Positions 3,227 to 63,579 of a DNA stretch of 64,000 bases are shown here, one piece after another. The first letter of the stretch is position 1, and the number at the start of each line of letters is the position of its first letter. The translations under genes and the position numbers were made by a program. The notes below the pieces were generated by a model. That model ran no database searches. It saw nothing but the letters and a program-made list of their open reading frames with translations, and was not told the DNA's origin. Origin of the DNA: Parabacteroides faecis (GTDB taxonomy: Bacteria; Bacteroidota; Bacteroidia; Bacteroidales; Tannerellaceae); assembly GCF_014647375.1 (NCBI RefSeq), contig NZ_BMPB01000021.1, positions 1 to 64,000 on the forward strand. The letters are read 5' to 3'.

Positions 3227-6200
3227 ATGAACCTAAGATATTTTATAGACCGTCCTGTCTTATCGATTGTTATTTCCATAACAATTGTTCTGATGGGTAT
3301 TATTTCTTTGTTTACGCTACCTGTCGAGCAGTATCCCGATATTGCGCCTCCTACGATCCAGGTCTTTACCAATTATCCGGGAGCCAATGCTGAAACTGTT
3401 CAGAAAAGTGTCATTGTCCCGTTGGAGGAAGCAATCAATGGGGTGGAGAATATGAACTATATCACTTCCACGGCCTCAAATAGTGGCGATGTGTTCCTCA
3501 ATATCTTTTTCAAACAAGGAAGCGACGCAGATATGGCGGCAGTGAATGTACAGAACCGTGTTTCTACGGCGTTGAGTTTGCTGCCTGCCGAAGTAACCAA
3601 GATCGGTGTCACGACCATGAAGCAGCAGAACGCTGAGCTGAAGACTTTTGCTCTTTACTCACCGGACGATGCTTACGATCGCCAGTTCCTCAATAATTAT
3701 ATGAAGATCAATGTGGAACCTCGTATCAAGCGTATTGCCGGAGTAGGGCAGGTTATGCAATTCGGTTCCAATTATAGTATGCGTATCTGGCTCAAACCGG
3801 ATAAGATGGCACAGTATAAACTGGTTCCGGGAGATATCTCGGCTGTATTGGATAAACAGAATATCGAAGCAGCTACGGGAGCATTCGGAGAAAATCATGA
3901 TAATACCCATCAGTACACCATGAAGTATCGTGGACGCTTCTCTACACCGGAAGAGTTCGGTAATCTTGTGATACGTTCTTTGCCGGGGGGCGATGTGTTA
4001 CGGTTACGTGAGGTTGCTGATATTGAACTGGGAGATGAGGCTTATAATTATGCAACGGAGGTGAATGGTCATCCGGCTGCACTGGCAATGGTGTTTCAGA
4101 CTGCCGGGTCGAATGCATCAATTATCATCAATGAAATCGATGCCACACTGGAAGAGATAAGCAGTGATCTTCCTAAAGGAATGGAGTTTATAACACTGAA
4201 TGACACAAACCGTTTCCTGTATGCTTCGATCCATGAGGTGGTAAAAACATTGTTGGAGGCTATCTTGCTGGTAATCCTGGTGGTATATGTCTTTTTGCAG
4301 GATATACGTTCTACGTTGATCCCGACTATTTCAATTTTTGTTTCCATTATCGGTACGTTTGCCTTTATGTCGGTAGCCGGGTTCTCGATCAACCTATTGA
4401 CATTGTTTGCTCTGGTATTGGCCATTGGAACGGTGGTGGATGATGCGATAGTGGTGGTCGAGGCTGTTCAGGCGCGGTTCGATGTGGGATATCAATCTTC
4501 TTATATGGCAACGAATGATGCAATGAAAGGAGTATCTTCGGCTATTCTTACCTCGACCTTGATCTTTATGGCTGTATTTATACCTGTGTCTATGATGGGA
4601 GGGACTTCGGGAGCATTCTATACCCAATTCGGTATAACAATGGCTGTTGCCGTCGGTATTTCGGCAGTCAATGCCTTTACATTGTCTCCGGCACTCTGTG
4701 CTTTGTTATTGACTCCTTATATAGATGAATCCGGAAATGTAAAGGATAATTTTGCAGCCCGTTTCCGTAAAGCGTTTAATGCAGCTTTTGATGTGATGAC
4801 CAAACGTTATGTACAAGGAGTATTATTGTTTGTCAAACGTCGTTGGCTGATGTGGGGCACATTGGTGACTGCCCTTGTTTTACTTGTTTTTCTGGTACAA
4901 CATACCAAGACAGGATTGATTCCCGATGAAGATACGGGAACCGTAATGATCAGCATGAACTCCAAGCCGGGTTCATCTCTGCCTCAGACTCAACGGGTGA
5001 TGGAGCAGATGAACAAACAACTTAAAGGGATTCCTGAGGTAGAATACAATGCCAATGTGGTAGGTTATTCATTTTCCGGTTCGGGACCTTCCATGGGTAT
5101 GTATTTCCTTTCGCTCAAACATTGGGATGAACGAAAGGAAGAAGGACAGTCTGCTGCCGATGTAGTGAATAAGATTTATGGTTTGTCGACTGAAGTTCCG
5201 GATGCGCAGATATTTGCTATGACGCCACCGATGATCCCTGGTTATGGTATGGGTAGCGGTTTTGAACTTTACATACAGGACAAGACTGCCGGTGATCTGA
5301 ACGCTTTCAAGAAAGTAACAGATAATTTTGTGGCCGCACTTAGCCAGCGCCCCGAGATTGAAGCCGTTTATTCTGCTTTCGAGACAAACTATCCACAGTA
5401 TTGGGTAGATATCGACGCCGCCCAATGCGAACAATCAGGAATTTCTCCGGGTGAAGTCTTAGAAACGCTTTCAGGCTATTATAGCGGTGGATATGTATCC
5501 AACTTCAACCGTTTCTCTAAATTGTACCGTGTGATGATCCAGGCAGATCCTGAATATCGTGTCACACCGGAGTCGCTGAACCATCTTTATGTAAGGGTCG
5601 GTGAGGAAATGGCACCGTTGAGCCAGTTTGTAAAGTTGACGAAAACGTATGGCCCGCAGGATTTAATGCGTTTCAACCTCTATAATTCGATCTCGATCAA
5701 CGGTTCACCGGCAAACGGTTACAGTTCGGGAGATGCATTACAGGCCATTAAAGAAACGGCGGATCAGGTGTTGCCGAAGAATTACGGATATGAATTCGGA
5801 GGTATCTCACGTGAAGAAAGTAAGACGACTAATAATGTTGTTATTATTTTCGGTATCTGCCTTTTGTTGGTTTATTTGATATTAAGTGCTTTATATGAGA
5901 GTTTTCTTATTCCGTTCGCAATTATTCTTTCGGTGCCTTGCGGATTGTTGGGCAGCTTTTTGTTTGCCCAGTTGTTCGGGTTGGGGAATGATATTTATAT
6001 GCAGACCGGATTAATCATGCTTATCGGATTGCTGGCTAAGACAGCTATTCTTCTGACGGAATATGCGACTAAACGCCGGGAAGCAGGAATGTCACTGACG
6101 CAGGCTGCTCTTGCCGCTGCAAAAGTTCGTTTGCGTCCGATCCTGATGACGGCTCTGACAATGGTATTTGGTCTGTTGCCGTTAATGGTGGCGCATGGGG

Positions 6201-50853: not shown

Positions 50854-51845
50854 ATGACAGGAAATAATATGAATATACCGAATTTAAACCATCTAAGGTT
50901 GATGACTTATTCAATGAAATATTCGGATTTTATCCCATAAAACAAGGGCAAGCTTATGAGTTGATAGCAGGGGCAGCACTAAAGATTATCTATCCTGAGA
51001 AGCAAATACGGTGGGATGAAAAACGGCAAGGTGAATATGATGAAAATACGTACCAAATTGATTTAAGCATTTATTCATATGATAATGTCATAATGGGAGA
51101 GGCAAAGGATCATATTAAGCAAAGTAGTAAAGTGTCAAGGCCGGAAATAGATAAACTTGCCGGATCGCTTATAGAACTTAATTATGATAGCGGCTTGTTT
51201 TTTTCGGCCACGGACTATACAGAGGATGCTTACCGGAAATCAGCGGATTCAATTAAAAACCCGAATGCAAAAAACATATCACTTGTACATGTCAGACCTT
51301 CAGAACCACAGGATCGTGATGGTCGGCTTGAAGTTATAAACATATCTGTTGTAGTGTATAAATTGGATACATCTAAAATATTGCTACAACCATTGCTTGA
51401 ACAAGCCGATTTAGAAAGATATAACGATAAAGTTAATATTCAGATGCCACTTAAATCCAAAACTCGATTTGGGAGGGATCATTTTAAAGCAGAAGCGTGG
51501 GGTGATTTTATGGATGAAAAAGATAATGTTTTGGGTAGTTATCATTTTGTCAAAGAATTTACAGAGGAAGAGCGCTCCCAGCCTGAACGGATGGAAACCG
51601 AAGAAAAAGGTGTATGGAATAATGTTGTCGGCGAAATGATATTCGGTGATGAGAAATTTATGTTATCTCGTATCGGTTACCATTTTTATTACATTCCGGA
51701 AGAGATGGAATTTAATATTGAGCAGACAGGTACACCTGTATTGTTGATTAAATACGCTGATTCTTCAGATGAAGTGGATAAGTTAATCACTGATGAAGAA
51801 CTTCGCAAAATTCAGTTTAAAGATAATGGTGAAATTATATTATGA
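50854..51845 (+). CDS. Mrr-like restriction endonuclease, frameshifted near its start
   Basis: The main frame (to 51845) has no ATG, but reads back in phase from 50868 as YEYTEFKPSKVDDLF. An ATG at 50854 in another frame gives MTGNN directly before it. Inserting one T near 50866-50868 would join them into a 331-residue protein. The core has a PD-(D/E)xK-like pattern, with ID about 10 residues before MGEAKDH, then SGLFFSATDYT, as in Mrr-type nucleases. Either the gene is inactivated, a non-ATG start is used (TTG at 50961), or the base is missing by sequencing error. Confidence 0.65.
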
Positions 51846-52873: not shown

Positions 52874-54883
52874 CTATCCTTGCTCCGGTAATAAATGACA
52901 CAGAATCGGGTCGTTCTTAATTCGTTCTAATTCGTCCTCAACAATTTGGCGGGTTTCGGCTTTGATACGGTCGTAGTTTTCCTGTATCATCTCCTGCATC
53001 CTGTCCACGCCGTCCTCATCCACAAAGTTGGTAATAACGGGTATCTTTTGGTATTTAGCGGTTTCGCGCTTTACCCGTTCGTTGTCCACGACAATTTCTG
53101 CATGAAATATTTTCTGCTCAATGCGCTCGTCAAAGTTATCGGCGACGGCTCCGACAAACATACCCTGCGTGAGTGTCGAAATTTTACTGGCTGGTATCAG
53201 ACTATCGAGTTGGGTCGAAATGGATGTGGACTTGTCGTTGCGGTTAATAGTCATTGACTGCCTTTTCTGCAACACTTTACCGAATCGTTCCGAGAGATTT
53301 TTAGCAGTTTCGCCGACTACTTGACCACTGAATATGTTACCGACCGTGTTCATTACGACCTTCGCTTCCTTATCTCCATAGTCGCGCGTAAGCTGCGAAA
53401 AGTCCTGAAAACCGAGTAATACGGCTACTTTATTGCTTCGGGCGGTGGCGATAAGGTTATCTAAACCCTTGAAATATATCGTGGGCAATTCGTCGATCAC
53501 AACCGAACTTTTTAGCTGACTTTTCTTATTGATGAGCTTCACAATGCGGGAGTTGTATAGTCCAAGCGCCGCACCGTAAATGTTCTGGCGGTCGGGATTG
53601 TTACCCACTACCAGCACTTTTGGGTCGTCTGGATTATTTATATCCAATGAAAACTCGTCGCCAGACATGACCCAATAAAGTTGTGGTGAAATCATACGGG
53701 AGAGCGGTATTTTGGCGGATGCTATTTGGCCCTGTAACTGGTCTTGCGCTCCACCGAGCCAAGCATCCATGAACGGCGACAAGTAGTTCTCTAACTCCGG
53801 TTTCGACGTGAGTATCGGGAATATATCTTCGTACCGCTTATTCAGAAACTCAATGGCATGGGGGAATGTACAGTATTGCCCGTCCCTATAAATACGGAGA
53901 TACCAAATGATTGCTGCTAAGAGAATTATCGGACTTTCGACGAAAAAATCGCCCTGTTTTTGAACCCATGTTTTATTGAGGTTCAGCATAATGGTATAAG
54001 CCGATTCATAAGCATCGGATATATCGGTCATAAATGCTGGGTTAATAGGGTTGCAGCGATGCGACCGGGACGGATCATCGAAATTGATTACATAGAAAGT
54101 CGGCACTTTCTTATAACCGCCCTGATTGTTCAATAGATGGTTGTAGGCGATTTCCGAAAGGTCGGGAAACTTAAAATCGTACACATACATCGAAAACCCC
54201 TTTTCTATTTGCTGTTTGATGAATGAATTTACCACAGCATACGATTTACCACTGCCCGGAGTACCCAACACAATAGCCGCCCTGAAGGGATTTACGACAT
54301 TGATCCAGCCATTCAGTTCTTTCTTTTGATACCAGAATTTTGTAGGGAGATTGACCGAATATTCATTTTCCTTCAATTTCGTTTCCTGCATGAACGATTC
54401 ATTTTCGATATTAAACGGGTCTTCCATCAGGCGGTTCTTCAGCAGACGCGACATCCATACTCCCCCCATCAATAGACAGATATATCCGACCGACATCGTG
54501 AGAATATAGAATCCGGTATTGGCTTCCAGTGGCAACGGCAAGTGTAGCAGCCACCAGTTAAAGAAGAACAATACGAAGCCGATTGAGAGAGAAATGATAA
54601 TCTTATTCCATGTTATCTTTTCCTCTTTTACGCCCTTTGTCCCCAGACAGGAAAGAGTGAGAAATACGACAGCAAATAATTTCGTCCATAATATATTATG
54701 GAATAGCCCTGCCGTGCAGTTAAAATTAAGGAGTATCTTATCAACTACTCCCACATTGATACCCCATGCGGCTATCTGCCCATAGCAATACCAATAAATG
54801 TTTATCACTACGAAAAGTATGGAGAGAGCACGCATAAAATCCATCACTTTTGCCAATCCACGGAGGTCATCTTCCTGTTGCAT
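52874..54883 (-). CDS. mobC: Type IV coupling protein (TraG/VirD4-like, MobC of Bacteroides elements)
   Basis: A 669-residue protein with N-terminal membrane helices (about residues 18-40, 56-75 and 90-145) and a cytoplasmic ATPase. Walker A is VLGTPGSGKSYAVV (about 206-219), and SSVVIDELPTIYFKG (about 455-469) includes Walker B. It brings the relaxase-bound DNA strand to the mating channel. In related elements it follows mobA and mobB; here the dnd operon separates it from mobB. A TATTTTCG box and phased GTGGC repeats lie upstream. Confidence 0.88.
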   Translation of the reverse strand: MQQEDDLRGLAKVMDFMRALSILFVVINIYWYCYGQIAAWGINVGVVDKILLNFNCTAGLFHNILWTKLFAVVFLTLSCLGTKGVKEEKITWNKIIISLSIGFVLFFFNWWLLHLPLPLEANTGFYILTMSVGYICLLMGGVWMSRLLKNRLMEDPFNIENESFMQETKLKENEYSVNLPTKFWYQKKELNGWINVVNPFRAAIVLGTPGSGKSYAVVNSFIKQQIEKGFSMYVYDFKFPDLSEIAYNHLLNNQGGYKKVPTFYVINFDDPSRSHRCNPINPAFMTDISDAYESAYTIMLNLNKTWVQKQGDFFVESPIILLAAIIWYLRIYRDGQYCTFPHAIEFLNKRYEDIFPILTSKPELENYLSPFMDAWLGGAQDQLQGQIASAKIPLSRMISPQLYWVMSGDEFSLDINNPDDPKVLVVGNNPDRQNIYGAALGLYNSRIVKLINKKSQLKSSVVIDELPTIYFKGLDNLIATARSNKVAVLLGFQDFSQLTRDYGDKEAKVVMNTVGNIFSGQVVGETAKNLSERFGKVLQKRQSMTINRNDKSTSISTQLDSLIPASKISTLTQGMFVGAVADNFDERIEQKIFHAEIVVDNERVKRETAKYQKIPVITNFVDEDGVDRMQEMIQENYDRIKAETRQIVEDELERIKNDPILCHLLPEQG

Positions 54884-55219: not shown

Positions 55220-56554
55220 ATGTCTCAAAGGATAAAGCACATCATATCAGAACTTAAAGATCAATACTTAATAGAGGACTCTCTACGTCCCTGGATTATA
55301 GGTTTTAGTGGAGGGAAAGATTCTACCGTATTGCTACAATTAGTTTGGTATGCATTGATGGAAATCCCCGCCGAAAATAGAAAGCGTCCTATTCATGTTG
55401 TTTGCAATGACACCTTGGTTGAAAACCCTATAATTCAGGATTATGTTGGTGGGGTACTCAAAAAAATAGCAGATTCTGCTGTAGCACAAGGATTGCCTGT
55501 TTTTGTCGAAAATACAATTCCTCGTTTAGAAGATACTTTTTGGGTAAATGTTATTGGCAGAGGGTATCCTGTCCCGAACAATGCTTTTCGTTGGTGTACC
55601 GATAAAATGAAAATTAAACCAACTTCTCGATTTATAATCGAGCAAGTTGCCGAAAACGGAGAAGCCATAATTCTGATTGGAACACGGAGTTCTGAAAGTG
55701 CTACAAGAGCCAGGTCTATTAAGAAGCATGAGATAAAAGGGAAGCGTTTGACTAAACACCCTCATCATCCGAATACTTTTGTATATTCTCCTATAAAGGA
55801 TTTGTTCTTGGAAGAAGTTTGGTATATCATCAATACGAAGACTTCCCCGTGGGGCGCAGACAACTCTAAATTATTCCAAATCTATTTTGATGCAAGTGCT
55901 GACGACTACGAATGCCCGACAATGGTTACCGATAAGAGCCATGGTTCTTGTGGACAAAGCCGTTTTGGATGTTGGACATGTACTGTTGTCAAAGAAGATA
56001 AATCTCTGACTGCACAAGTAGCAAAAGGGCAAACGTGGCTACAACCTCTTCTCTCTTTGAGAACAAGCATGTTTGATGAAAGAAATGTTTCGGACAATAG
56101 GTTGCCTACCCGTAGAAATGGACAAGCTGCGGTAAGTGATGATGGTGTAAATCAGGGGAATTATACTCCCAAGTATAGAGCCACATTGTTAGAACAACTA
56201 TTGACAGCCCAACGAAAAATGCAGGTTGAGAAGCCCGGAATAGAGCTGATTACCAATCAAGAGTTAATAGCTATTCAAGTCATTTGGCATAAAGACCTAC
56301 TTTTTAATTATCGGGTTTCGGAGATTTACAACAAAGTTTATGATAAAACATTAGATATGAAGAAGGATACCGAGAAAATCCAGAAGGAGATAGATTTATT
56401 GAAATCCGTCTGCGATGACCAACCGTCTGATTTTGACCTAATACAGGAGTTGTTGATAATGCAGAAAAACAAAGCATTATTGAATAGAAAACGCGGTCTG
56501 AAAGACGATATGGAGAGAGTAATTGAAAAGTATCTGGATAAAGAGCCGGCATAA
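55220..56554 (+). CDS. dndC: DNA phosphorothioation protein DndC (PAPS-reductase-like)
   Basis: A 444-residue protein of the ATP-pyrophosphatase/PAPS-reductase fold. The PP-loop is FSGGKDST (about residues 29-36). Four cysteines (residues 232, 244, 251, 254; text CGQSRFGCWTC) are placed to hold the Fe-S cluster known in DndC. The family activates the DNA backbone with ATP so that sulfur replaces a non-bridging oxygen. Its TAA overlaps the dndD ATG (TAATG), so expression is coupled. No cysteine desulfurase dndA lies in the window; a housekeeping IscS-type enzyme may supply sulfur. Confidence 0.9.
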   Translation: MSQRIKHIISELKDQYLIEDSLRPWIIGFSGGKDSTVLLQLVWYALMEIPAENRKRPIHVVCNDTLVENPIIQDYVGGVLKKIADSAVAQGLPVFVENTIPRLEDTFWVNVIGRGYPVPNNAFRWCTDKMKIKPTSRFIIEQVAENGEAIILIGTRSSESATRARSIKKHEIKGKRLTKHPHHPNTFVYSPIKDLFLEEVWYIINTKTSPWGADNSKLFQIYFDASADDYECPTMVTDKSHGSCGQSRFGCWTCTVVKEDKSLTAQVAKGQTWLQPLLSLRTSMFDERNVSDNRLPTRRNGQAAVSDDGVNQGNYTPKYRATLLEQLLTAQRKMQVEKPGIELITNQELIAIQVIWHKDLLFNYRVSEIYNKVYDKTLDMKKDTEKIQKEIDLLKSVCDDQPSDFDLIQELLIMQKNKALLNRKRGLKDDMERVIEKYLDKEPA

Positions 56555-58670
56555 TGTATATCAAGGAGATACAACTGAATAATTTCAGAATATACAAAGG
56601 GACAAATACAATCTCTTTGCTTCCTTCCGATGACAAAAATATTATTGTTGTCAGTGGGAAAAACGGATATGGCAAAACAACTTTCCTCATGTCATTAGTT
56701 TGGTGTTTGTACGGCAAGCAAATGGAGAAAGTGGATGAACTATACGAAAAAGAGATCCGAGATAAGGGGAATTACACAAAATATATAGCTAATAGCCTTA
56801 ATCGCAAAGCATACGAGGATGGGGAAACGGAATTCTCGGTTTCTATTACTTTCTCAGGGGTTAAAATTCCGGATATTACATGTAATGAGGTTACAATAAA
56901 ACGCTCGTATAACATAGTGTCAAGCACTTCGGATAAGGTTGAAGTTTTAATCGACGGTTATCCGAATGAGTTGATTGATGACCTTACAAAAGAGAATCAA
57001 AAAGGCGAAGAAATTTTCATCCGGGACTTCATTCTTCCTATTGAAATAGCGAAATTTTTCTTTTTCGATGCAGAGAAGATAGTGTCGTTAGCTGAAGTAA
57101 ATTCTAATAGCCAACGCAGGCAACTGAGCAAAGCATATTCAGAGGTTCTTGGAATTCAGAAGTACGAAGATTAAAAGCGAATCTGGAAGAAAAGCAAGAC
57201 GAATATCGCCGTCGGTCTGCCAAACCGGAAGAACAGGAAGAACTCAACCAACTTCATGCAGATATTGCCAATACTAATATCGAAATAGAAAAATATCAGG
57301 ATCAGATTGATGACCTGAAGCATGAAAGAAATCAGAAAGAAAAAGAAGCTGAGGACATTCAACGGAAGTTGATTCGCGAAGGAGACAAAATGACTTTGGA
57401 GGAATTAACCTCATTAAAGGATGAACAGGTCAAATTGGAACGGCAAAAAGAAGAGATTCAGGAAAAACTGAAAGATTTGCTGGATATTATTCCGTTCGCC
57501 CTTGCCGGGGATACGCTTGCAGGTGTTTCCGAACAGCTAAAGAATGAGCAGGATTTGTCCGAGCAAAAATACAGACAAGAAGATGTCAATGAAAAGATAG
57601 ACCAGATTCGGCAGGATATTGAGGCGGAGCGCCTTAAAACAAACTTTGTTGTTAATGTCAATACCCGTGATTTTTATGAGGGTCAAATAAGAAAACTGGT
57701 TAAGAAATACTTTTATTCAGATCTGAAAGAACTTCCGGAAAATATCAAAATACTACATGATTTTTCGGGGGTTGAGATTAATGAATTCAATCAGTTGGTA
57801 AGTACCGTTAAGCATAGTTTCAAGGATACATTTTCTCAGATGAATACGGAATATTCGTTTGTTAAAAATCAACTGGATGCTATTATCAGGAAGATACGAG
57901 ATGCAGAAAAGAGCGCGGAAGACGAATATATAGCTGCATTACGAGATACTAAAGAGCGGTTAGATAAACGGATTATCTCTATCGAAAATGAGATAGAGTC
58001 TATCGTTCTGAAAATAGGCGAATTGAGCAATCAAGGAAAAACCTATAAGCAACGTCAAGAAATTCTCCGTAAAAAGATCGATGAATCAAGTGTTTATTCG
58101 GAAAAAGAGCAAAAAACGAAACAGTTAATTAACCGTTTGCAAAAGTTCATTAATCTGTTTAAGGAGGAGAAAAAGAAATCTCTTGGCGAGAAAATGCTCA
58201 ATTCACTTGATATTCTTTTACATAAGAAAAACTTTATCCGAAAAGTTGATGTGGATATCAGTATGTCGGGAGACGATATAGATATTGTACTTTATAACGG
58301 CAACAATAAGATTATTGATAAAAGTTCGCTTTCTATGGGCGAGCGTCAGATGTATGCTTCTGCTTTGTTGAGTTCGCTGGTAGATGAATCAGAAATTGAG
58401 TTTCCTGTTTTCATTGATAGTCCAATGCAGAAATTTGACGAAGAACATGCGGAAAATATCATTCGACACTTCTATCCGAATGTTTCCAAACAAGTGGTGA
58501 TATTTCCTCTTATCAATAAAGAACTTACGGAGAAAGAATATGAAGTTCTCCAACCGAAGGTTTGCAAAGCATTCCTGATAAATAACACCTCAACAGATAG
58601 TTCCGAATTTTTGGAAACTACTCCTGAGCAGTTTATAACAACTTACAACGATCTATACAATGCAAATTAA
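56554..58670 (+). CDS. dndD: DndD SMC/Rad50-like ATPase, split by a one-base frameshift
   Basis: The reading frame runs 56554-57174, then continues in the -1 frame from 57171 to 58670. Joined, it encodes about 705 residues, near the usual DndD length. Walker A is GKNGYGKT (residues 35-42). Coiled-coil text fills the middle. The ABC signature SLSMGERQMYASALL and Walker B FPVFIDSPMQKFDEEH are near the end. The break occurs at GAT-TAA-AAG (57169-57177); one extra T would restore the frame. DndD is needed for sulfur insertion, so the break could inactivate the system unless it is a sequencing error or is bypassed by slippage. Confidence 0.85.
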
Positions 58671-60234
58671 CATAAGAACATCGGAAAGGAATCAAGAGGT
58701 TGTTCGTAAGTTAACGACGAAACTACCCTATGGGACTAAAGAGAATGTCATTGCTCGAATTGCATTAGGCTATTCTTTGCAAACAGGCAAGAAGTTCCAA
58801 ACAGGTAATTTCAATTTATATGATTCTAAGGGAAAAGAGTATAAAGATCACATCTTATTTGATGCTAAATATCGTGATTTCTTTATTGCTTTAATATGCC
58901 AGCATTATGGCCTCTATAAAACAGATGATAATATTCCCAAGTATATCAAGCTACATATTGATCATGGGTTGGAATTAATGGATACAATCTTCCAAGACAA
59001 TTACAATTATACATTCTTTGATTTTTTGGTGGAATATATCGAAAAGGGGACTCTGGCCTTAACAGACCTGAATGTTTCATTAGATGCTGTCAGAAATAAT
59101 CAACAACAAATAGAGAAGTCATTTTATGCCAACCCGATTAAAGTTCAAATCGGTAAAAGCCTCGTGGATGAAGAGCCGATATATCTGAACCTAAACGACA
59201 CCAAACTGTATAATAACTGCCATATTGCTGTTGCAGGGAATTCAGGTACAGGTAAAACCCAATTTGCTTTAGAGTTCCTTTCGCAGATTTATGAGCAGTC
59301 GAATGGGCATGTGAATTTTATTTATCTTGATTTCAAAGGGTTAAAGCAAGATGATGTAAAACGGCTGGACAAGTTCTTCCAAAACACAAAAACAAACTTT
59401 GTTGATGTGCCACAAACCCCATTTCCTGTAAATCCGCTGACATTTATTGACAACATCAATGAAGTCAATAAAACGATGGGGATTGATAAATTTGTTGATA
59501 TTGTATGTAAGTACTCTAATCTCGGTATTAAGCAAAAGGGAAAGTTACGGGAAGCCACTTATGAGGCTTTTTTAGAGCAGAAGGGCGGTCTATATCCCAC
59601 TCTAAAACAAATAAATGATAGGTTACAGGAAATTGTCGGGGACAAAAAAGATACATTAACGGAAATTATGGACGAGTTAAGTCGCTATAAGATTTTCATA
59701 GATGACCCGAAGAATGAATCCAACTTCCTGAACTCAAATCTGTATCTTTCTCTTTCAGGCGATTTATCCAACTCTGTACGTTTTACGTCTCTATTCCTCA
59801 TCATAAATTATTTATATAATACATTTATGAATATGGATAATAGCCCTGTTGAGAATAATGTGAAAGCCTTACGTTACGTCCTTTTAATTGACGAGGCTCA
59901 TGTTCTCTTTAAGGAGAAGAAATATCAGGATATTTTGGAGAAATTGTTGCGTGAAATTCGCTCAAAAGGCGTATCCGTTGTTCTGTTATCACAGGGGATT
60001 GACGAGTATAACCAACCCAATTTCGATTTTTCCAGCATGTGCGAAATCGCTTTCCTTTTAGATATTAAGGATAAGAATACGAAATCTATGGAGAAATTTC
60101 TTGGCATGTCCGGCGAGGGAAGCAAAAAGATTGCTCGTAGCATGGAAAAAATACAAACGGGACAAGCTATTAGCAATATCAAAGAGTATAATAAAGGAGA
60201 CTTGTTCTGGATTAAGCAATTTAAAGATAGATAA
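58660..60234 (+). CDS. dndE: DndE domain fused to a HerA/FtsK-like ATPase
   Basis: A 524-residue protein overlapping the end of dndD by 11 bp. Residues 1-115 match the small DndE protein (IRTSERNQEVVRKLTTKL at 5-22, later KYIKLHIDHGLELMD). DndE alone is about 110-130 residues and binds nicked DNA. The remainder is a P-loop ATPase with Walker A AGNSGTGKTQ (about 192-201) and Walker B LLIDEAHVLF near 407-416, then VVLLSQG. HerA-like motors occur in the separate restriction protein DndH/DptH. A fusion would tie DNA translocation directly to the modification complex. Confidence 0.85.
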   Translation: MQINIRTSERNQEVVRKLTTKLPYGTKENVIARIALGYSLQTGKKFQTGNFNLYDSKGKEYKDHILFDAKYRDFFIALICQHYGLYKTDDNIPKYIKLHIDHGLELMDTIFQDNYNYTFFDFLVEYIEKGTLALTDLNVSLDAVRNNQQQIEKSFYANPIKVQIGKSLVDEEPIYLNLNDTKLYNNCHIAVAGNSGTGKTQFALEFLSQIYEQSNGHVNFIYLDFKGLKQDDVKRLDKFFQNTKTNFVDVPQTPFPVNPLTFIDNINEVNKTMGIDKFVDIVCKYSNLGIKQKGKLREATYEAFLEQKGGLYPTLKQINDRLQEIVGDKKDTLTEIMDELSRYKIFIDDPKNESNFLNSNLYLSLSGDLSNSVRFTSLFLIINYLYNTFMNMDNSPVENNVKALRYVLLIDEAHVLFKEKKYQDILEKLLREIRSKGVSVVLLSQGIDEYNQPNFDFSSMCEIAFLLDIKDKNTKSMEKFLGMSGEGSKKIARSMEKIQTGQAISNIKEYNKGDLFWIKQFKDR

Positions 60235-60240
60235 ATATTT

Positions 60241-60762
60241 ATGCCGTGTTTAACTTTAAACGAGATTAACGAATCGTTTCCTGAATCTGTACTAAAATTA
60301 CAGGTTATTCATCATAAAGATTGGTGGCAGAATATAATCTTGCCTGGTTTTCCAGCTCCTATACGCATGGAGTTCAATGAAACAATCAGAGATAGAATGC
60401 CGGCATCAGTGAAAACACATAAAGGCATATATATGTTCTTTATAGAGCCTAATCATCCATTTGTCCCCGAAATTAAACATTTGATGTATGTTGGGAGAGT
60501 TTTAGCTGGGAGAACAGGTTTTAATTTTTTTAAGCGTCTTTATCACTATGTTAAAGACATTGGAAATCGAAATGCTGCAAGAAATAGACAATTTCTAACG
60601 AACCTCTGGCCTGATCATACATTTGTCTATTTTTATTGTCTTGATGGAAAAACAGATGATGAGATTATAGAGATAGAGAAACTTCTGATTAACAAAATAG
60701 TACCGCCTCTCAATAATGAATTCATTGGCATCGCGAACAGAACAAGAGATTTATACAATTAA
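60241..60762 (+). CDS. GIY-YIG family nuclease of the dnd operon
   Basis: A 173-residue protein. The motif KGIYMFFI (residues 61-68) and LMYVGRV (81-87) are the GIY and YIG strands. Basic residues follow in NFFKRLYHYVKD. The catalytic Glu is probably in IEIEKLLINK (about 143-152), and the PPLNNE end (155-160) supplies the conserved Asn. It starts 6 bp after the dndE-ATPase and ends 2 bp before dndB, so it belongs to the operon. It may be the effector that cuts DNA lacking phosphorothioate, replacing DndFGH; this is inference. Confidence 0.82.
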   Translation: MPCLTLNEINESFPESVLKLQVIHHKDWWQNIILPGFPAPIRMEFNETIRDRMPASVKTHKGIYMFFIEPNHPFVPEIKHLMYVGRVLAGRTGFNFFKRLYHYVKDIGNRNAARNRQFLTNLWPDHTFVYFYCLDGKTDDEIIEIEKLLINKIVPPLNNEFIGIANRTRDLYN

Positions 60763-60764
60763 TT

Positions 60765-61997
60765 ATGATACACTTAGCTTGCCTTAGAGGGAATATAGGT
60801 TTTTGGACTTATTATTCAACAATAATGAAAATCAAAGACGTAGTATCTGATAATAGGATTATTACTGTTAGCGAGTCGAATGAGTTATATACTCAAAATA
60901 TTAATAGGATTTTGCAACGCGAGATAAGTCCTATCCGAATAAATAAAATATCAAACTATATTTTAACTACGGAGGAAAGATTTTTCAGTAGTTTAGTCGT
61001 TGCCATTCATCAGGGAACTCCCAAATGGACAGATATAGATCTATATGAGCAGTTCGAGATAGAAGGGAATGCTATTGCTGAGGATGAATTAATCTCTTTA
61101 GGGAGCAAGTATGGAATTTTATCATTGTCTGGTAATGAACAAATTTTTGCATTAGATGGTCAACATAGATTAAAGGGGATTAGAAAGGCATATGGTCAGA
61201 ATCCTGAAATAGGAGATTTGGAAATTTCTTTGACTTTCGTCATACATAATCATGAGAATGTTGAAAGAACAAGAAGGTTATTTACTGTATTAAATAAATA
61301 TGCAGAAAAACCGAGAGGCGCAGAATTAATAATATTAGACGAAGATGATGCTGCCGCTATCAATACACGCAGATTAGCTACAGAGCATCCAATATTATCA
61401 AGGCAGAACGCGATATCAAATTCCAAAACAGGAGCAATCTCCAATAGTGATGTACAGTCATTTACCACTTTGGTTACTCTCAACTCAATTAACAAAGTAC
61501 TTTACAATAAACCGAGTAGTTATTATACCCAAAGGCCACCTGCTGAAGAAATCAACATCTTGTATCAGAAATCTGTAACCTTTTGGAATACATTTTTTGA
61601 AATTTATCCTGAAGTCACTTCATTTATTGATGGTAATAATGAAGTTGAGATTTCAGGAGAAAGAATTTCCCGTAATGATAGAACTGGAGGAAGCCTTTTG
61701 CTTCGTCCTGTTGGGCAAGAATTGGTAGCTAAGGCTTATATGAAATTTGCTCAAAACGAAATGGATGATTTTGCAAATAGATTGAGGCAAGTAAATTTCA
61801 ATTTATCATCTTTCAACTGGAAATATATTTTCTGGAATGAGAAGATGTTGGGTAAAGAACAAAAACTAAAAACCATCCTATTGTTATTTATTCTTGGCAA
61901 GAACAATGATAGTAACTATATACATAGAGAAATGCGAAGGGTGTACGGATTGAACAATCAGGCATATAATGAAGATTTAATCCAACGAATCAATTAA
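60765..61997 (+). CDS. dndB: DndB (DGQHR-domain protein)
   Basis: A 410-residue protein. The ATG at 60765 is chosen over 60825 because LACLRGNIGFWTYYSTIMKI (residues 4-23) aligns with the ALRG...YY start of known DndB proteins. The DGQHR signature is at residues 131-135 (FALDGQHRLKGIRKA). In Salmonella DndB represses dnd transcription, and DGQHR proteins may act on the DNA backbone. It is last in this operon rather than first. It converges on the relaxase gene with only 11 bp between stops. Confidence 0.9.
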   Translation: MIHLACLRGNIGFWTYYSTIMKIKDVVSDNRIITVSESNELYTQNINRILQREISPIRINKISNYILTTEERFFSSLVVAIHQGTPKWTDIDLYEQFEIEGNAIAEDELISLGSKYGILSLSGNEQIFALDGQHRLKGIRKAYGQNPEIGDLEISLTFVIHNHENVERTRRLFTVLNKYAEKPRGAELIILDEDDAAAINTRRLATEHPILSRQNAISNSKTGAISNSDVQSFTTLVTLNSINKVLYNKPSSYYTQRPPAEEINILYQKSVTFWNTFFEIYPEVTSFIDGNNEVEISGERISRNDRTGGSLLLRPVGQELVAKAYMKFAQNEMDDFANRLRQVNFNLSSFNWKYIFWNEKMLGKEQKLKTILLLFILGKNNDSNYIHREMRRVYGLNNQAYNEDLIQRIN

Positions 61998-62008
61998 CTC
62001 AAATTATA

Positions 62009-63163
62009 TTACGATATTGAGCGTCCTTTGGGGCGCTTTTTTTGTCTCTTCCCGGTGCTAATCTGTCCCTGGTCGGATTCCCCGGAAAGCGTATGCAGAT
62101 CCGCACCGGTTTTTTGCATGGGTTCGGGATACCGTTCATTCAGGGCGTTGGCGGAATATTCTTTGCCCAGCCGTGAGCCATTGAGAACGCATCGGCTCTC
62201 ATTGTCGATGAACGTAACCCCGGTAATGCGTCCTGTATCGTTACGTCGCAAATAGAGATCAATGTGGGAAGCTCGCAGATTCTCACACAGCCGGTTTTCG
62301 GTCGGCGCATCCAAAAACGCTTCGGCAATACGGTGGCGCAGTCGCTCCCTGATTTTATCCTTTTCGATCTTCGCCCCGGAGCGTTCCATCTGTTTTTCCA
62401 ACGCATCAAAACCGACCGCTCTACCCAATATGGAAGATTTGAGGGGTGTCGCTTCCGCCTTTTTCCCGTCGGCATCCAGTGCCGTGTATAGCAATCCCCG
62501 GTAAGGTTTGCCGTCACGTTCTCCCCGCACTTCCTCTATTCCTATATTATATAATGTAAGCAGCGCCCGAAACTCGCCGAGAGTTTGGAAGCGGTACATA
62601 CTCGCGGCTGGTTTGACGACTGCCGCGATTTGCTTTTTAAGATTGCCCTTAGTCTGATCGACGGGTGTAAATTGCCACTGTTCGGAATGATTCTGTCCTT
62701 TTGCCGGATGCAAACCGTACTCCTTTTCCAATGCTTCGGTTATTGCCACGCTGCGCTCGTTCCGCAGTTTATCGTTTATCTTCTTGCCGTCCGGTTCCAC
62801 CTGCACCGACACGATATGTATGTGTTCACGCTCGATGTCCGAATGTTTAAAAACGATATAAGGCTGACCGCCCCAACCCATACGATCCATGTATTTAGTG
62901 GCGACCTCGGATAACTGTTCGTCTGTGAGGTTGTCTTTAATGTCGGGGTTGAGGGAGATATGTATGACCGGCTTTTCGCAACGGAAGTGCGAGGGCATCC
63001 AGCGCTGGAGGTCTTCGGCTGTGGCGACAACATTGAAAATACCGTCCGCAGGTTCACGGACAATGTGTGTCGCCAGCACCTTTCCTTTCTCTTTATCCAC
63101 CTTCTCCTGATTATATGCCAGCGCTCCGTAGAGGTTATTTCCGGTCGTGATTTTGGCTACCAT
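62009..63163 (-). CDS. mobB: Relaxase/mobilization nuclease MobB
   Basis: A 384-residue relaxase of the MobP/VirD2-like group. The metal-binding HUH-type text KHSDIEREHIHIVSVQVEPD (about residues 105-124) contains the two histidines, and HISLNPD lies near 68-74. A Tyr in the N-terminal NLYGALAYNQEK (about 10-21) is a candidate nicking residue. It cuts one strand at oriT to start transfer. It overlaps mobA by 7 bp. In related elements the coupling-protein gene follows directly, but here the dnd operon lies between them. Confidence 0.88.
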   Translation of the reverse strand: MVAKITTGNNLYGALAYNQEKVDKEKGKVLATHIVREPADGIFNVVATAEDLQRWMPSHFRCEKPVIHISLNPDIKDNLTDEQLSEVATKYMDRMGWGGQPYIVFKHSDIEREHIHIVSVQVEPDGKKINDKLRNERSVAITEALEKEYGLHPAKGQNHSEQWQFTPVDQTKGNLKKQIAAVVKPAASMYRFQTLGEFRALLTLYNIGIEEVRGERDGKPYRGLLYTALDADGKKAEATPLKSSILGRAVGFDALEKQMERSGAKIEKDKIRERLRHRIAEAFLDAPTENRLCENLRASHIDLYLRRNDTGRITGVTFIDNESRCVLNGSRLGKEYSANALNERYPEPMQKTGADLHTLSGESDQGQISTGKRQKKRPKGRSIS

Positions 63164-63579
63164 CGTTTGTTAAAATCTTCGGAAAGTGCGATAATCTCCT
63201 TACCTATTGCCGCCAATTCCCCGGTTATTTTCTCCAATTTATAGAGCAGTGCGAGTGCTTTTTTCTCAGAAAAATGCGTGTGAAGTTCCTTTACGACCTG
63301 ATTGTAATTGACACCAACGGCACGGAATTGCGCATGGAATTGTGTCAGTTTCGCCACATATTCGAGCGTACCCCGGTCGGTTTTAACCACCCGGAACGTG
63401 TCGTCGAATACCCGTGCTTTGATAAATACCGCTTTGGCCGCGATGCCGGACTGCTCAAACAGGGTCAGAAAATGTGCATATTCTTCATTGCTGAATCGCA
63501 CCATGATACAGTTGGAAGCGGTATCGTTTTTGGCGGGTCTGCCGCCCTTACCCCTGTGGGGAACATCTTTCTTTTCCAT
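63157..63579 (-). CDS. mobA: Mobilization accessory protein MobA (MobC-type, ribbon-helix-helix)
   Basis: A 140-residue basic protein. The segment NCIMVRFSNEEYAHFLTLFE (about residues 23-42) is the ribbon-helix-helix part. The C-terminal region VGVNYNQVVKELHTHF (about 97-112) is conserved in plasmid mobilization relaxosome proteins. It probably binds oriT and positions the relaxase. It overlaps mobB, so the two are coupled. The region upstream (63600-63850) holds several hairpins. Confidence 0.87.
   Translation of the reverse strand: MEKKDVPHRGKGGRPAKNDTASNCIMVRFSNEEYAHFLTLFEQSGIAAKAVFIKARVFDDTFRVVKTDRGTLEYVAKLTQFHAQFRAVGVNYNQVVKELHTHFSEKKALALLYKLEKITGELAAIGKEIIALSEDFNKRW

Follow-up and report, generated by a model that had tools for sequence, protein, structure and literature searches.

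A GIY-YIG-like and DGQHR gene pair downstream of a DndEi-type phosphorothioation writer in Parabacteroides faecis lies in a slot of exchanged two-gene cassettes

SspE, the effector of the phosphorothioate (PT) system SspABCD-SspE, combines DUF262 and an HNH nuclease in a single chain and has been described to sense PT DNA, to hydrolyse GTP via its DGQQR motif and thereby to license the nuclease (PubMed Central PMC13251355). In the IscS-DndBCDE-DndI system the Dnd writer is accompanied by DndI, a ParB-superfamily/nuclease effector which is also a single chain with HNH, is able to act without DndFGH, releases PT-marked self DNA upon ATP hydrolysis and is harmful without PT (PMC11662687). GmrSD type IV restriction uses a ParB/Srx-fold nucleoside triphosphatase (NTPase) and an HNH nuclease, in one or two proteins, with a glucosylated base as target, and the QR, DGQHR and FxxxN motifs were named for the GmrS/SspE-type group (PMC4619093). 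Already known are moreover the Dnd writer itself, its variant component DndEi, a PT-modification protein with an extra DNA helicase domain that occurs in Bacteroidales (PMC7464106, where the original DndEi paper is cited with a title calling the helicase activity essential for modification), the association of DGQHR proteins with PT (TIGR04172; PMC3226654) and URI/GIY-YIG nucleases adjoining Dnd genes (PMC10853773). Restriction genes are said to be missing from many bacteria with PT (PMC11931770). Here, a five-gene operon of Parabacteroides faecis is analysed, which lies at positions 55220-61997 on the + strand of a window of 64,000 nucleotides (contig NZ_BMPB01000021.1, positions 1 to 64,000) and in which dndC, dndD and a DndE-ATPase fusion gene (dndEi) are followed by a GIY-YIG-like gene and a DGQHR gene.

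The locus shares with DndEi-type writers the fusion of DndE to a helicase/ATPase domain, here together with dndC and dndD, and with SspABCD-SspE the linkage of a DGQ-R NTPase and a nuclease to a PT writer; it differs from SspE and DndI in the distribution over two chains, DGQHR and GIY-YIG, and from GmrSD in the type of nuclease. We read the locus, with a probability of roughly 0.55, as a Bacteroidota-type writer dndC-dndD-dndEi plus a separate GIY-YIG/DGQHR effector cassette working as a split analogue of SspE/DndI. No mention of a GIY-YIG and DGQHR cassette for the Bacteroidales DndEi occurs in the accessible portions of PMC7464106, and neither pairing of the nucleases with a DGQHR gene nor cassette exchange was found in those of PMC10853773; the supplements of the latter, outside the literature search, possibly list such neighbourhoods. 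Within this search no description was recognised of a GIY and DGQHR unit, of its presence beside both Dnd and Ssp writers or of two-gene exchange after dndEi. The genes of the operon, with lengths in amino acids (aa), are:

55220..56554, + strand: dndC, sulfurtransferase of the PT writer, 444 aa (TIGR03183 and PADLOC DndC)
56554..57174, + strand: 5' piece of dndD, N-terminal ATPase half, 206 aa, early stop (alignment of relatives)
57171..58670, + strand: 3' piece of dndD in another frame, listed as open frame 57369-58670 of 433 aa (alignment of relatives, TIGR03185)
58660..60234, + strand: dndEi, DndE domain with HerA/FtsK-type ATPase, 524 aa (PF08870, HerA_C)
60241..60762, + strand: GIY-YIG nuclease-like gene, predicted effector, 173 aa (motifs, UvrC match, fold matches)
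60765..61997, + strand: DGQHR-domain protein of the ParB superfamily, predicted NTPase gate, 410 aa (TIGR03187, motifs)

The DndE-ATPase gene overlaps dndD, and gaps of only 6 and 2 bases separate dndEi from the GIY gene and the GIY gene from the DGQHR gene. The coordinates, order, single strand and tight spacing of the five genes, as given in a first-pass annotation made from the sequence alone, were borne out, and so were its identifications of dndC, of the DndE-ATPase fusion and, by motifs and weakly by fold, of the GIY-YIG gene. The dndD, described there as one gene, is in two frames with a break at 57171, and the last gene, named dndB, is ruled out as canonical DndB by a score of 71 bits on the equivalog model TIGR03233 (cut-off 328).

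The DGQHR protein matches PF14072 DndB (111 bits, cut-off 29.1) and TIGR03187 (109.4 bits, cut-off 58.85). Its QR pair (Q51, R52), its DGQHR motif (D131-R135) and F173/N177 of FxxxN are invariant in 25 DGQHR rows, and in the same rows the residue preceding the QR pair is L, I, V, S or N and not tyrosine, in what is a motif-only comparison of families. In Rhizobium NXC14 a canonical dndB reaches 443.6 bits on TIGR03233 and the paired DGQHR protein 63.2 bits, so the two are different proteins within one locus.

With the thresholds applied (E 0.001 for Pfam), neither Pfam nor PADLOC nor NCBIfam gave a match for the GIY-like protein, and its counterparts in two DndEi-relative loci (L031, from Aequorivita, and L059) were without Pfam match even at E 1. 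G62, Y64, Y83, G85, R99, Y103 and E146 are invariant in 19/19 GIY proteins, and UvrC was the best PDB match (E 9e-4). For a structure model with a predicted local distance difference test score (pLDDT) of 63, the six best PDB fold matches, R.Eco29kI (four times), Hpy188I and T4 EndoII, belong to the GIY-YIG endonucleases; these matches are weak, with E 0.009 to 0.22 and template modelling scores (TM-scores, by query length) of 0.31-0.44. Inactive variants of R.Eco29kI are given in its entries as E142Q and Y49F, and E142 and Y49 would be the counterparts of E146 and of a tyrosine of the GIY motif. A GIY-YIG fold of the small gene product is thereby weakly supported, and the gene likely encodes the effector nuclease.

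A scan of genome contigs yielded 67 loci with DndEi relatives, most of them in Bacteroidota, with labels of Ignavibacteriota in two and of Pseudomonadota in three and with one unassigned, and the + strand genes starting at most 1.7 kilobases (kb) downstream of dndEi were clustered for a census of cassettes. The slot was occupied by GIY and DGQHR in 11 of the 67 loci (12 with the window), by a small membrane-type protein and DGQHR in 12, by a ParB-like (C1) and an MspJI-like protein (C2) in 16 and by a GHKL ATPase (C4) and a methyltransferase (C5) in seven; none of these four cassettes was present in 21, two of which reach the contig edge within 1 kb. All 16 C1 proteins carry an EGNRR motif, which we read as ParB-like, and the one member tested matched PADLOC PD-Lambda-5_A (E 2e-23). 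For a C2 model (11/16 proteins aligned, pLDDT 77) the four best PDB matches were MspJI restriction endonuclease, with E values between 1.1e-3 and 2.7e-2 and TM-scores of only 0.22-0.29. C4 is a GHKL ATPase in the two members tested, and the one C5 protein tested matches PF20553 Methyltransf_35. The small membrane-type proteins (C6, C7, C8) have two to five hydrophobic segments in 12/12 cases, the GIY proteins none in 12/12.

On a tree of 64 DndEi proteins, which comprised the window and 63 full-length proteins of the 67 loci (L040, L047, L068 and L069 were excluded for length), the five slot labels including 'none' need 32 changes, the minimum being 4. Shuffled labels average 37.4 changes and were as low as observed in 4/200 shuffles; the cassette is therefore nearly unlinked from the writer, yet not fully random. 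Leaving out 'none', 19 changes were counted for four labels on 45 rows (unshuffled count). In two locus pairs DNA comparison revealed the exchange of two genes between conserved flanks. Kordia L052 (GIY and DGQHR) and L060 (membrane protein and DGQHR) share 87% identity until 7 bases beyond the dndEi match, their two-gene cassettes do not align, and the 3.2 kb downstream are again at 92% identity. Similarly, L042 (C4 and C5) and L065 (membrane protein and DGQHR) share 83% identity until 12 bases beyond the dndEi match, and they align again, at 78.5% identity over 3.7 kb, beginning at the very end of the cassette. In a third comparison, of L022 with L023, 90% identity extends up to positions 5380/5366, slightly beyond dndEi, followed by one common piece of 277 bases, and the two membrane-cassette loci L065 and L050 have a portion of the cassette plus some downstream sequence in common; most other pairs showed upstream homology only or short additional pieces. 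Two loci with other contents were seen besides. In locus L147 (7975-9994, genome G099) the genes behind a complete DndC-DndD-DndEi set encode a DndB-family protein of 355 aa (PF14072, 35.2 bits) and a protein of 319 aa without Pfam match, perhaps another cassette type, and L007 (3239-4534), the locus of the closest DndEi relative (94%), holds none of the four cassettes and has an AAA_14/DUF4143 gene on the other strand.

The GIY and DGQHR genes are inherited as a unit. In Mantel-type tests on identity matrices, in which L037 was left out for GIY/DGQHR because its DGQHR gene is in two frames, the divergence of GIY correlated with that of DGQHR (rho 0.68, p 0.001, n=11) and not with that of DndEi (rho -0.18, n=12), while the controls within GIY loci gave rho 0.48 for DndC against DndEi (n=11) and 0.86 for DndD against DndEi (n=9). 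The first-pass annotation had made the ATPase the partner of the GIY-YIG protein; by these values the partner is likely the DGQHR protein. C1 and C2 behave in the same manner (rho 0.61, p 0.0005, n=16; C1 against DndEi -0.07). Moreover, a tree of 26 DGQHR proteins, built without L037 and without the Proteobacterial proteins, separates 14 GIY-partnered from 12 membrane-partnered rows by a single change with support 100/100 (shuffled mean 8.9). TIGR04172 (DNA phosphorothioation-associated DGQHR protein 1) fits the membrane-cassette partner of L060, the only one of its type tested, with 437.9 bits, just below the cut-off of 450, and five GIY-type DGQHR proteins score far lower (24.5-36.8 bits).

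The pair also occurs outside this operon type. Profiles of GIY (A1) and DGQHR (A3) were compared with 395 genomes, at most eight and four candidates, respectively, being scored per genome. A1 matched in 40 genomes, and standalone frames of 175-188 aa were present in only four, the window's genome, G265, G122 and G283; the other 36 matches are open frames of 287-661 aa, those near 600 aa probably being UvrC. The same four genomes exceed 300 bits among the 24 with A3 matches, the next reaching 148, and the two genes are adjacent in 4/4. SspB, SspC and SspD were identified by PADLOC in G265, and SspC and SspD in the stretch fetched from G122; in G283 the order differs, with dndC, dndD, GIY, DGQHR and a DndEi-like gene (own profiles). 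Among 72,556 plasmids the Roseobacter GIY protein led to five records (itself included) and the Roseobacter DGQHR protein to 20; the same five records carry both genes side by side with DGQHR scores of at least 243 bits, and the other 15 reach at most 69 bits. In Roseobacter litoralis pROLI83 the pair directly follows genes for cysteine desulfurase, DUF4007, ATP-binding protein and PAPS reductase (sspABCD by annotation) and thus occupies the position of sspE. Rhizobium K1/93 carries a set like that of pROLI83 with an FtsK gene nearby, Rhizobium NXC14 (L196) carries GIY, DGQHR and methyltransferase genes followed by dndB, dndC, dndD, dndE and a desulfurase gene, and a Salmonella contig with integrative-element genes (L197) has the pair beside dndBCDE. 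The GIY profile matches the small gene of the pROLI83, K1/93, NXC14 and Salmonella loci at E 6e-25 to 2e-31. PT writer genes were present in 7/7 loci opened after being reached by GIY/DGQHR queries (G265, G122, G283, three of the five plasmid records and one of three records of a phage collection), four with Ssp and three with Dnd genes, in two phyla. With the window's GIY gene as query, tblastn of plasmids gave no match, and viral_contigs gave one candidate stretch, which was not confirmed; megablast gave no match for the operon in plasmids or for the Salmonella pair in E. coli genomes.

Two neighbourhoods of the pair hold further genes. In L144 (5328-12281) an ATPase (best LmuB 70.8 bits, then PbeC 54.7) and a helicase (sub-threshold PLD) precede GIY and DGQHR, and the stretch is convergent with sspBCD, possibly as two linked defence systems back to back. 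In L145 (4553-7006) the gene directly before the pair encodes a GHKL-type ATPase, with a score of 25 bits that just equals the Pfam cut-off.

As for the writer, DndC is assigned by TIGR03183 (435.9 bits, cut-off 290.4) and PADLOC DndC (E 4.4e-145); the candidate for a second dndC in the genome (C7) was rejected with 30 bits on a profile of our own, compared to 768 for the window gene. The two dndD pieces score 112.9 and, for the 3' piece, 149.6 bits, under the TIGR03185 cut-off of 245.85. When DndD proteins of five relatives were aligned to the window, each fell into two pieces in two frames with zero residues lost and a junction at 57171 in three, at most two codons away in the other two. Since a full-length single dndD frame of 697-715 aa is present in 54 of the 67 loci (in the remaining 13 it is cut by contig ends or damaged), a programmed frameshift is not supported, and the break arose recently or stems from an error of assembly; if it is real, the PT writer is probably inactive in this copy. 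Damaged dndD genes were also noted in L026, L040, L047, L059 and L073. Additional frame breaks in dndD or dndEi occur in L047, L068 and L073, and the multiple breaks of L068, dndC included, may be sequencing errors. Behind dndC a 320-aa protein replaces the 5' part of a truncated dndD in L059 (8443-9405), L026 (7965-8927) and L040 (8904-9866). All three contain an HNH_2 domain, and the N-terminal part of the L059 protein, the only one checked, matches the sulfur-binding domain SBDHga1 (8h0l, E 1.6e-10), so that in these loci part of the PT writer has given way to a likely PT-dependent nuclease.

The DndE part of the fusion protein matches PF08870 (65.8 bits, cut-off 25) and stays under the TIGR03184 cut-off (32.7 bits versus 71.85); its ATPase part matches HerA_C (29.8 bits, cut-off 22) and the C-terminal ATPase of DndH (92.5 bits). 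By this domain make-up the protein fits DndEi, a component of the PT writer. The original 2016 DndEi study reportedly worked on Riemerella anatipestifer. A DndEi query, with at most three candidates scored per genome, matched 34 of the 395 sampled genomes of the phylum at E 0.001, five (the window's included) over most of the length, four over the DndE part and the others over the ATPase part. The sole DndH match in the window's genome is the ATPase region of dndEi; full-length DndH and thus DndFGH were not found, DndF and DndG not having been searched by name. The absence of dndFGH reported for the window by the first-pass annotation therefore holds genome-wide to the extent of the DndH search. 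Its proposal of a compact self-contained modification/restriction system is plausible with the GIY-YIG protein as likely effector, and the ATPase is rejected from that role because its domains fit DndEi; the order dndEi-GIY-DGQHR, which it regarded as a new type, recurs in 11 other loci and so is not unique, and the refuting case named there, a common occurrence of the order, applies in part. DUF262 (PF03235; SspE, DndI, GmrS) was not found in the genome either, in a search with positive controls in 8/14. The missing dndA could be covered in principle by other cysteine-desulfurase-type genes, ten Aminotran_5 matches being present, nine over the cut-off.

In the proposed mechanism the DGQHR protein would be a nucleotide-hydrolysing gate responding to PT-marked DNA, to its loss or to infection, and would control the GIY-YIG nuclease, which then would cut DNA. 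The logic of SspE/DndI would thereby be spread over two chains, with a nuclease that may be exchanged for a membrane protein; nucleotide hydrolysis, PT sensing, DNA cleavage and anti-phage defence are functions we infer for the cassette. A gate that is silent without PT, as in SspE, is favoured over one that is harmful without PT, as in DndI, because the pair is intact despite the dndD break, if this is real; the same is suggested by L059, where dndD is truncated and both genes of the pair are open. More tentatively, and with less than even odds, Dnd and Ssp writers may be a constant platform for interchangeable two-gene effector cassettes; within one cassette family a shared DGQHR gate would then operate either a GIY-YIG nuclease or a membrane protein. 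Several observations weigh against the split-effector interpretation. The PT-sensing tyrosine of DndI/SspE is not seen before QR by motif comparison, which makes a one-to-one copy of the SspE pocket less likely, and the GIY-YIG assignment suffers from low model confidence and from fold matches of which none reaches E 0.001. C4 and C5 track DndEi (rho 0.74 and 0.82, n=7), and the membrane-cassette pair correlates only weakly (rho 0.27, p 0.047, n=12). The DGQHR gene of the Salmonella contig may be interrupted: as annotated, its frame has no more than 351 aa and no QR stretch, and two separate pieces made up the match. Furthermore, the 12 dndEi-linked GIY loci, the window included, were found via the writer and hence are no independent test of PT linkage.

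Membrane-protein cassettes also suit suicide better than DNA restriction, and it is conceivable, if unlikely, that the DGQHR protein senses infection or system failure without PT sensing and releases the GIY-YIG or membrane protein in order to kill the cell. The occupation of the same slot by homologous DGQHR proteins with either a nuclease-like partner or one with hydrophobic segments agrees with this, and Rakesh et al. 2024 (PMC10853773) proposed suicide as the role of URI nucleases that stand alone in the vicinity of Dnd genes; pure suicide modules would need no tie to PT writers such as that seen in all seven independently reached loci, and the Roseobacter pair takes the very place of sspE. 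Decay of the locus, with dndD broken and the 3' cassette as a passenger, is improbable: the frame break is clean and dndD damage recurs in five other loci, but the other four genes are open, a single break without residue loss could equally be an assembly error, and the wider cassette pattern would be left unexplained. Even less credit is given to a DndB-type operon repressor accompanied by an accessory GIY-YIG gene without defence role. Reports of canonical DndB and DndB-family proteins as repressors, cited in PMC10853773, together with the PF14072 and TIGR03187 matches lend it some ground and count against a split effector; the protein however fails the DndB equivalog, a canonical dndB that passes it stands beside the pair in Rhizobium NXC14, and the divergence of the pair does not track that of the writer.

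If the cassettes are effectors, part of the gap left by missing restriction genes would be filled. Effector exchange of this kind is known from other defence systems, and a DGQHR gate that has a nuclease as partner in some cassettes and a membrane protein in others would tie PT epigenetics to it. Such a gate would also account for a dndB-annotated gene in a locus that already holds canonical dndB, as in Rhizobium NXC14. The platform reading, if true, would mean that PT-based immunity has a modular layer of effectors so far unrecognised, membrane-acting PT-linked effectors included, and the swappable cassettes point to possible hidden anti-phage effectors.

The operon is bracketed by genes of a conjugative element on the opposite strand:

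52874..54883, - strand: TraG-type coupling protein of a conjugative element (PF14293, PF12696, PF02534)
62009..63163, - strand: relaxase (PF03432, 89.2 bits)
63157..63579, - strand: MobC-like protein (PF19514, 181.5 bits)

Relaxase and coupling protein are about 150-260 bases apart in four elements of the same genus (L189, L191, L192, L193; tblastn ends) and 7125 bases apart in the window, and the operon is thus cargo of the element. In a fifth element of the genus, L190, the gap is filled by other cargo, which makes it a possible insertion site for cargo; the cargo of L190 (6988-8138) includes a cation-efflux-transporter-like protein, as read from the sequence. Within the window, an Mrr_cat restriction endonuclease-like gene (50961-51845; 22.4 bits, cut-off 21) adjoins the conjugation genes as possible further defence cargo.

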